A stretch of 64,000 nt of DNA from Armatimonadota bacterium (GTDB lineage: Bacteria; Armatimonadota; Fimbriimonadia; Fimbriimonadales; Fimbriimonadaceae), in NCBI GenBank assembly GCA_037138755.1, contig JBAXHT010000001.1, positions 343,805 through 407,804 of the forward strand, read 5' to 3'. The notes below the pieces were generated by a model. It was given only the letters and a program-made list of their open reading frames with translations. It did not search any database and was not told the DNA's origin. The position numbers and the translations under genes were made by a program. Positions 10,968 through 27,774 of this stretch are shown piece by piece (positions within the stretch are counted from its first letter, which is position 1; every line of letters begins with the position of its first letter).

Positions 10968-10993
10968 GAGTGTGCGCGGTTCACCGCCGCTTT
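10968..10993 (+). repeat. Possible degenerate copy of the GGAGT-hairpin-TTT element
   Basis: GAGTGT, then an imperfect hairpin (GCGCGGT/ACCGCCGC, one extra base) and TTT resemble the palindromic elements at 26703 and 27711, but the conserved left flank AGTATG is missing. Assignment is tentative. Confidence 0.3.
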
Positions 10994-11231
10994 ACACCTC
11001 CCGAGTCATCGAAAGTAGAGCTTCCAAAAACCCTAGATCGAAACCCAAAATGAGAAGCCCGGCTCAATCAATCAACTCCCAACTCAATACCATGTCCCCA
11101 CTTGTCCCCACCAAAAACACAAAATGAGCTGCCCGTTGAACCCAATTCCCCACTAAAATGCGTCGCAGTTCTTTCGAACAATGCCGACTGCCACCCGCCT
11201 TCTCAAAACCCCCGGTAACATCCACCGAGCA

Positions 11232-26431: not shown

Positions 26432-27703
26432 TCACAACAGTTGCTCACGTAAAAGCCGCAACGCAGTCTGCTCCGCTCTTGCTCGAATATCCTCGCGGAT
26501 TCCTCTGAACTTGCACTCCTCAACTGAAGTTCCATCGGGCGACGCAATCGCGATGTAGACCAACCCAACCGGCTTCCCGTCGACATCGGCGGTTGGACCG
26601 GCATTGCCAGTGATGGCAACCGAGTAAGTGGTTCGTAATGCGAGCCGAATCGACTCCGCCATCCAGGACGCGGTTTCGGGAGAAACTGGTCCGTTCTCTC
26701 GGAGTATGGAGTGCGCGGTAGAAGCCGCGCTTTCGCTTCCGTATTCTGAAACATTTGGGGTCGAAAGGAGGGCCGCTTTTGCATCTACCGAGTAAGTGAC
26801 CACACCGCCCACATAAGCAGCACTCGCTCCCGGAACCATCGTCAGCCGCGAACCCAAGCCGCCTCCGGTAATCGACTCCGCTGTCGAAACTGTCTCTCCC
26901 CTGGAAATCAACAAAGCCAACACGGCTTCCTCCAAAGTCGTCTTGTTAAGCCCGTACACCGCCGAGCCCAACTCGGCTCGAATCGCGGCTTCAACGGGGT
27001 CAAGCAATCCCTCTGCATCAGAAAGCGAAGAAGCCTTGGCGGTCAACCGAAGATGAACCTCGCTTGGCTGAGCGTAAGGCGCAACCGTTGGATTCTCGTT
27101 CTCCATCAGGTGCTTGATCCGCTCCTCGACCGCGCTCTCGCCAACCCCCGTTATCCGTAAGACCCGCGAGTGGATCACCACACCGCCGCCCAAGGTCTCT
27201 AGCATCGGCTTCACCGAGTCGTACGCCATCGGGTCAAACTCCCCGCGGGGTCCAGGGAGCGCAAAGACCGTCTTGCCGTTCTTCCGCGCGACCAGCCCCG
27301 GCGCGGTGCCGTTCGGGTTTGGGATGATCTCGGCGCAGGTCGGCTTTTGCGCTTGCCTCGCGTTGGATTCGACCCAGGTGTAGTTCCTCGCGGCGAACCA
27401 GCGGCGGAGGCGCGTTTCGATCTCCGGCACCGTCTCCAACGTGTCGTCAAGGGCCAAAGCAATCGCGTCCCGGGTGAGGTCATCCGCTGTTGGCCCAAGA
27501 CCACCAATGCAAACCACCACATCCGCCCGGCTCAGGGCCTGGCGAAGCACCTCGACAATCCGGTCCAAATTGTCGCCCACCGTCTGTCGGTGCCGACACC
27601 CAATGCCGCATTCGGCCAGAATCCGCGCCATCGTCGCCGAATGCGTGTCCGTTATCTGCCCCAATAGCAGCTCAGTTCCGATGGCAACGATTTCGGCGTT
27701 CAC
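26432..27703 (-). CDS. cinA: CinA-family protein (nicotinamide-nucleotide amidohydrolase / competence-damage protein)
   Basis: A 423-aa two-domain protein: an N-terminal MoaB/MogA-like COG1058 domain (AIGTELLLGQITDTH at 7-21, CIGGLGPTADDLT at ~66-78) and a C-terminal PncC domain that deamidates NMN (TAESITGGGLG, VAITGNAGPTAD). In PncC, between the YSVDAKAALL strand and LRENGPVSPETA, there is an extra ~14-residue stretch (TPNVSEYGSESAASTAHSI) coinciding with a palindromic DNA repeat at 26703-26735, so the repeat seems to have inserted in frame. The start is GTG; another copy of the repeat ends 7 nt upstream. Confidence 0.9.
   Translation of the reverse strand: MNAEIVAIGTELLLGQITDTHSATMARILAECGIGCRHRQTVGDNLDRIVEVLRQALSRADVVVCIGGLGPTADDLTRDAIALALDDTLETVPEIETRLRRWFAARNYTWVESNARQAQKPTCAEIIPNPNGTAPGLVARKNGKTVFALPGPRGEFDPMAYDSVKPMLETLGGGVVIHSRVLRITGVGESAVEERIKHLMENENPTVAPYAQPSEVHLRLTAKASSLSDAEGLLDPVEAAIRAELGSAVYGLNKTTLEEAVLALLISRGETVSTAESITGGGLGSRLTMVPGASAAYVGGVVTYSVDAKAALLSTPNVSEYGSESAASTAHSILRENGPVSPETASWMAESIRLALRTTYSVAITGNAGPTADVDGKPVGLVYIAIASPDGTSVEECKFRGIREDIRARAEQTALRLLREQLL
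26703..26735 (+). repeat. Palindromic element, copy inside cinA
   Basis: AGTATGGAGT, then an 18-nt hairpin (GCGCGG/CCGCGC stem) and TTT. The left 13 bases (AGTATGGAGTGCG) are identical to the copy at 27711. It lies within cinA and is read as part of the protein. Confidence 0.7.
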
Positions 27704-27710
27704 AGCATCT

Positions 27711-27741
27711 AGTATGGAGTGCGGAGTTTTAACTCCGCTTT
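27711..27741 (+). repeat. Palindromic element, intergenic copy
   Basis: AGTATGGAGT, an 18-nt hairpin (GCGGAGTT/AACTCCGC, 2-nt loop) and TTT. Its layout and flanks match the cinA copy, but the stem bases differ and remain complementary, which points to a family of small mobile or structured elements rather than chance. It sits between cinA and the gene at 27829. Confidence 0.75.
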
Positions 27742-27748
27742 AAATGCG

Positions 27749-27774
27749 ACGAGCTCTGCTCGAGCAGAGCTCGT
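27749..27774. repeat. 26-bp perfect palindrome
   Basis: A perfect self-complementary stretch (ACGAGCTCTGCTC and its reverse complement) directly beside the palindromic element at 27711, in the 125-bp divergent region between cinA and the H-X9-DG-like gene. It could be a dimeric operator or a second repeat type. Confidence 0.7.

Follow-up and report, generated by a model that had tools for sequence, protein, structure and literature searches.

A family of short palindromic repeats bearing a GGAGT tag is dispersed in the genome studied here (G000; 3.27 Mb in 20 contigs, a relative of Fimbriimonas), and our analyses indicate, with a probability of about 0.87, that it constitutes a REP/REPIN-like family spread by the RAYT of the same genome, one solo REP of which entered the cinA gene and has been tolerated there as approximately 14 loop residues. 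On the best reading, the family is a variant of the REP/REPIN-RAYT system distinguished by its GGAGT tag, and not a Rickettsia palindromic element (RPE). The window, that is, the whole stretch of 64,000 nt that was analysed, corresponds to C1:343805-407804.

The repeat family and its copies in the window

Both window copies are located on the + strand and, as claimed in the earlier note, begin with a shared sequence (the 10-nt AGTATGGAGT), which is followed by an 18-nt hairpin and TTT; the stem of the hairpin measures 7 bp. Copy 1, inside cinA, occupies 26703..26741 (AGTATGGAGT at 26703-26712, with GGAGT at 26708-26712; hairpin at 26713-26730; TTT at 26731-26733; tail CGCTTCC). Copy 2 occupies 27711..27749 (AGTATGGAGT at 27711-27720, with GGAGT at 27716-27720; hairpin at 27721-27738; TTT at 27739-27741), 7 nt upstream of the GTG start codon of cinA (27701-27703), beside which it had correctly been placed. 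When folded as single-stranded DNA, each copy forms just the 18-nt hairpin. Folding also identified a second palindrome with an 11-bp stem adjoining copy 2 (27749..27774, + strand), and inner hairpins similar to this one come after the REPs both in the pairs described below and at the RAYT gene.

The exact pattern TGGAGTGC-N14-GCTTT was matched 35 times across G000, as against about 0.1 matches expected by arithmetic from its 13 fixed bases, and a genome-wide search with a covariance model (R1, built from 45 copies) recovered 46 copies, so that the absence of copies beyond those in the window is ruled out. According to column counts, the family consensus is TNTGGAGT-GCG...CGC-TTT, that is, TNTGGAGT followed by the 18-nt hairpin and TTT, with GGAGT as its tag. 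The 5' sequence that had been noted as shared is present in both window copies, but only TNTGGAGT is conserved in the family, and the 'AGTA' that the two have in common is therefore partly coincidental. The base preceding TGG varies (T22 A10 C9 G4), and thus GTGG is not conserved; a CGCTT tail is common to several solo copies, including the one in cinA. The inner four stem pairs are variable yet complementary, with 90.5% of cells paired versus 70.7% in shuffles and compensatory double changes in 65 cells versus 23.5, which bears out the suggestion that the stems differ while remaining complementary. Reading frames are open in the REPs in a mean of 4.84 of 6 cases versus 4.20 of 6 in random 36-mers of the window, an excess so modest that the idea of a repeat stop-free beyond expectation was set aside.

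With a second covariance model, which left out both window copies and the copy in dapF, the window copies scored 39.9 and 40.3 bits (E ~3e-7 in a search space of ~85 kb), versus 10.6 bits for the best other match in the window; further matches were obtained in dapF (22.2 bits) and upstream of cinA in the sister genome G017 (19.9 bits), and the rest remained below 11 bits. The degenerate third copy that had been proposed at 10968 is unsupported by its sequence (9.3 bits, E = 2.5). This site is near another dispersed repeat (AAAATGCGTCGCAGTTCT, 11155-11172), of which the window holds one exact copy and locus L056 three; the repeat is also present in L229, and its wider unit contains TACCCAACCCTACCCAACTTT.

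Inverted pairs, movement and the copy upstream of cinA

Around 11 copies of an inverted arrangement were recognized, each a REPIN/BIME-like pair of about 120 bp, whose inner hairpins are CCGAGC..GCTCGG and GCGA..TCGC; folding of one of these pairs gave a single long, branched hairpin (z = -10). The 121-bp pair at C1:1903517-1903637 has no counterpart at the orthologous site of G017 and G023, two sister genomes that display a clean empty site, with about 30 nt versus 153 between matching flanks and no evident target duplication. Its clean absence in two sisters indicates that the family has moved. The same comparison for one solo REP (L058) yielded no empty site, as the locus falls in a larger difference of ~1.15 kb.

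Judging from the sequences, copy 2 was probably inserted before the split of G000 and G017, since a decayed REP is found at the same place upstream of cinA in G017. The CCATACT end of copy 2, which lies directly next to the start codon, falls on a possible -10 element that shortly precedes this codon, a disposition that would suit repeats with a mainly regulatory role, acting as RNA hairpins in termination or mRNA stability, with copy 2 tuning the expression of cinA. This explanation appears unlikely to us: scans for promoters and terminators around copy 2 detected neither a sigma-70-like nor a terminator-like site, an Rfam search with the repeat gave no match, copies also occur inside genes, and the presence of the element in some sisters and its absence from others speaks for mobility. 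Copy 2 may nonetheless affect cinA as a side effect. As a separate observation, a candidate leaderless cinA promoter at 27704-27716 of the window (- strand) reads CATACT in G000 and G017 and TATACT in G023, and AT-rich equivalents of this candidate -10 element are present in G011, G012 and G024.

The RAYT gene and its relatives

In the favoured reading of a REP/REPIN-like family, the transposase would be the RAYT encoded at C1:1543437-1543961, one of four Y1-type ORFs in G000, which is situated between two inverted copies of the GGAGT family. Its product matches NF047646 (REP-associated tyrosine transposase) with 91.3 bits (cut-off, 80), and its structure model (mean pLDDT, 90.1) has as best fold match 4er8, a complex of the E. 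coli RAYT with a REP hairpin, which is also its sole sequence match in the PDB. The HUH and Y...NP catalytic motifs are present, as NHYH, WY and YVHRNP (YVHnNP), and residues N62, H63, H65, Y124 and N128 are invariant, and the NHYH motif nearly or fully so, in 22 RAYT sequences. By analogy with E. coli TnpA-REP, this HUH tyrosine transposase would bind the tag and hairpin on single-stranded DNA and cleave near the hairpin through its catalytic tyrosine, after which single REPs or inverted REP pairs would be inserted at other sites. We infer that this RAYT moves the copies described here.

Some RAYT match was obtained in 45 of the 85 genomes of the family. Inverted REPs also flank the RAYT in the sister G017, whose RAYT sequence is the same as that in a MAG named Fimbriimonas sp. 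(L139; 95% identical to the RAYT of G000), which places the window in a relative of Fimbriimonas (Armatimonadota), and orthologues were found in MAGs named Hydrogenedentes, Chloroflexi, Lentisphaerae, Gallionellales, Nitrosomonadales, Anaerolineales and Neomarinimicrobiota. In these other genera and phyla, the orthologous genes are mostly flanked by GGAGT and a hairpin of 17-20 nt, usually followed by TTT, with differing stems. Within the genus, 8 genomes possess this RAYT subfamily, and 7 of them bear at least 8 copies of the repeat, versus 1 of the 12 genomes that lack it (Fisher p = 0.0008); in G009, the RAYT is present with few matches to the model and hairpins of 19 nt, and G021 carries 25 copies without the subfamily.

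These observations bear on the alternative of an RPE-like family devoid of a transposase, located beside a RAYT gene by chance, to which the in-frame insertions in cinA and dapF would be congenial. We consider it extremely improbable, as the same tag and hairpin anatomy flanks RAYT orthologues in numerous genomes across genera and phyla, with stems that vary between genomes.

Several other RAYTs were observed. Two genomes of the same genus, G012 and G024, contain 16 and 19 RAYT matches, respectively, versus 0 to 5 in most others. At C1:1832279-1833796 (L077, 780-2297), PrmC and a RAYT domain form a single frame of 505 aa, the RAYT part scoring 78.9 bits (cut-off, 80), with direct copies of the TACCCCCGGCGTCTCGCCGGGAAATCC repeat on either side of that part. 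Two more RAYTs of G000, on C1 (L073, ~182700-183500) and on C3 (L076, ~65000-65900), have their own different palindromes nearby, namely 35-nt inverted repeats and an array of GCCTCCACAGT-n-ACTGTGGAGGC, which is consistent with one REP family per RAYT. In Gallionella relatives (L147, L148 and L150), two different GGAGT hairpins are arranged head to head, nested in compact units around the RAYT.

The insert in cinA

The cinA gene (26432..27703, - strand) encodes 423 aa from a GTG start, with MoCF_biosynth, CinA_KH and CinA/PncC domains, and bears an in-frame insert of about 42 nt, or 14 codons (26703..26744, - strand; residues ~321-334, ...GSESAASTAHSI...), the ends of which are approximate, CinA being diverged. 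In an alignment of 30 CinA sequences, the insert has no counterpart in the 28 relatives (0/28) and is thus not conserved, in agreement with the earlier attribution of some 14 extra residues to the copy at 26703. Extra residues after the TYSVDAK helix are displayed only by G000 and G023, and REP-derived ones only by G000, whose CinA is 14 residues longer than that of G017; full-length CinA matches in other genomes of the family do not exceed 415 codons. In a structure model, for which the closest solved fold is Thermus thermophilus CinA, the insert overlaps and adjoins the loop separating helices 306-313 and 326-337, and the low confidence with which part of this loop was modelled (pLDDT < 50 at residues 317-323) suggests that it is flexible.

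In the CinA of G023 (90% identical), this loop likewise holds an insert, but one of other sequence and greater length. It is a copy of a dispersed palindrome, CTCACCCC-N-CCCTCTCC, present in 3 copies in G023, 7 in G000 and 6 in G017, with none for a reversed control; the covariance model found no copy of the REP family in G023. That two unrelated palindrome families are found in frame in one loop, in G000 and G023, could be understood as the outcome of selection, the loop residues of the PncC domain being useful and having been gained independently by two sisters from different palindromes. This seems very improbable, given that the peptides differ in sequence and length, that the loop is partly of low confidence, that 28 relatives are without the insert, and that a permissive loop suffices to explain two different palindromes at one cinA site, with a parallel in recB of two Xanthomonas species (PMC3733652). 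The REP-derived insert is most likely tolerated rather than selected, since its length is a multiple of three, no stop occurs in frame, and the loop is variable among relatives; we infer that it is neutral for CinA. As to the order of events, copy 2 would have entered upstream of cinA first, before the split from G017, and the solo REP that is now part of the open frame would have entered cinA itself.

A second intragenic copy in dapF

Only two of the ~46 copies were found within conserved genes, the second being that in dapF (diaminopimelate epimerase, PF01678), which is more decayed, as its 22.2 bits reflect. It shares its codon phase with the cinA copy (NESASGTAHSI in DapF versus SESAASTAHSI in CinA). 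Over the matched region, the DapF of G017 falls short by 12 codons, but its loop has diverged, so the dapF case is weaker than that of cinA. The dapF loop also carries a GGCGTCTCGCC palindrome, like one that flanks another RAYT. Other ORFs overlapping copies (L036, L065, L058, L068 and L039) had no Pfam match and were treated as spurious, and a MutS_V ORF (L044) was discarded as an intragenic case, its copy being near the N-terminus and probably upstream of the true start.

Comparison with known systems

REPs have been defined by a GT[AG]G tag (PMC3686654, PMC6006769), whereas the tag here is GGAGT; by this strict definition, the elements are not canonical REPs, and they are REP-like in anatomy, transposase and movement. 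In common with REP/REPIN families and their RAYTs (TnpA-REP, REPtrons), they constitute a short palindrome dispersed in many copies (46, with covariation), with a constant tag at the 5' foot of the hairpin, variable compensatory stems and about 11 inverted pairs, together with a RAYT that has the catalytic motifs, the family profile and a 4er8-like fold and whose gene lies between two inverted REPs belonging to its family; movement is seen in the pair absent from two sisters, this RAYT being its putative agent. Unlike those systems, GGAGT stands in place of GT[AG]G, the GCG...CGC base of the stem is fixed, TTT follows the hairpin, and the copy number of 46 is modest. In a comparison of motif tables, NHYH, W[YH] and YIHYNP of TnpA-Y1 subclass 2.8 resemble NHYH, WY and YVHnNP of the present RAYT, although that subclass is reported with GT[AG]G REPs and mainly in Cyanobacteria (PMC6006769).

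The resemblance to Rickettsia palindromic elements that the earlier note had drawn stands with regard to the effect on the protein, as in both cases a palindrome is inserted in frame in a gene (here cinA and dapF) and adds peptide. Beyond this it is only an analogy, since the present family has a RAYT flanked by its copies, inverted pairs and a GGAGT tag, whereas RPE-4 and RPE-6 are CGTC-tagged, CGTC elements are without a known dedicated transposase (PMC3733652), and the lineage is another. In-frame REPs in conserved genes, and RPEs as intragenic CGTC repeats, have already been described, including REPs that differ between X. campestris and X. oryzae while occupying nearly the same position in recB (PMC3733652). 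The cinA case is alike in that elements lie in frame within a conserved gene, different ones at one site; it is unlike in that two differently built palindrome families share one loop, and in that the tag differs from both GTAG and CGTC.

A search for GGAG at word start gave no occurrence in the main text of PMC2817692, PMC3686654, PMC3733652, PMC6006769 and PMC8266576, and other publications may already have described the GGAGT tag. A search of one literature collection found no REP paper on this bacterial group. Two points are new in this work, namely a GGAGT tag associated with a RAYT clade that spans several phyla, and the entry of two palindromic families into a single cinA loop in sister species.

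Biological meaning

We tentatively propose, giving it slightly less than an even chance, that a RAYT clade with the motifs NHYH, WY and YVHxNP, present across many phyla, uses a GGAGT guide and not GT[AG]G, a change of guide that the REP literature consulted does not describe, and that its hairpins repeatedly enter genes where loops are permissive, conserved enzymes thereby acquiring new segments that derive from two or more palindrome families. A REP/RAYT pair with an altered tag makes the guide-recognition model of the E. coli RAYT testable by comparison. Furthermore, the cinA locus constitutes a natural experiment, in which two sister species acquired different palindromes in a single loop of a conserved protein, and it bears on how small insertions enter proteins.
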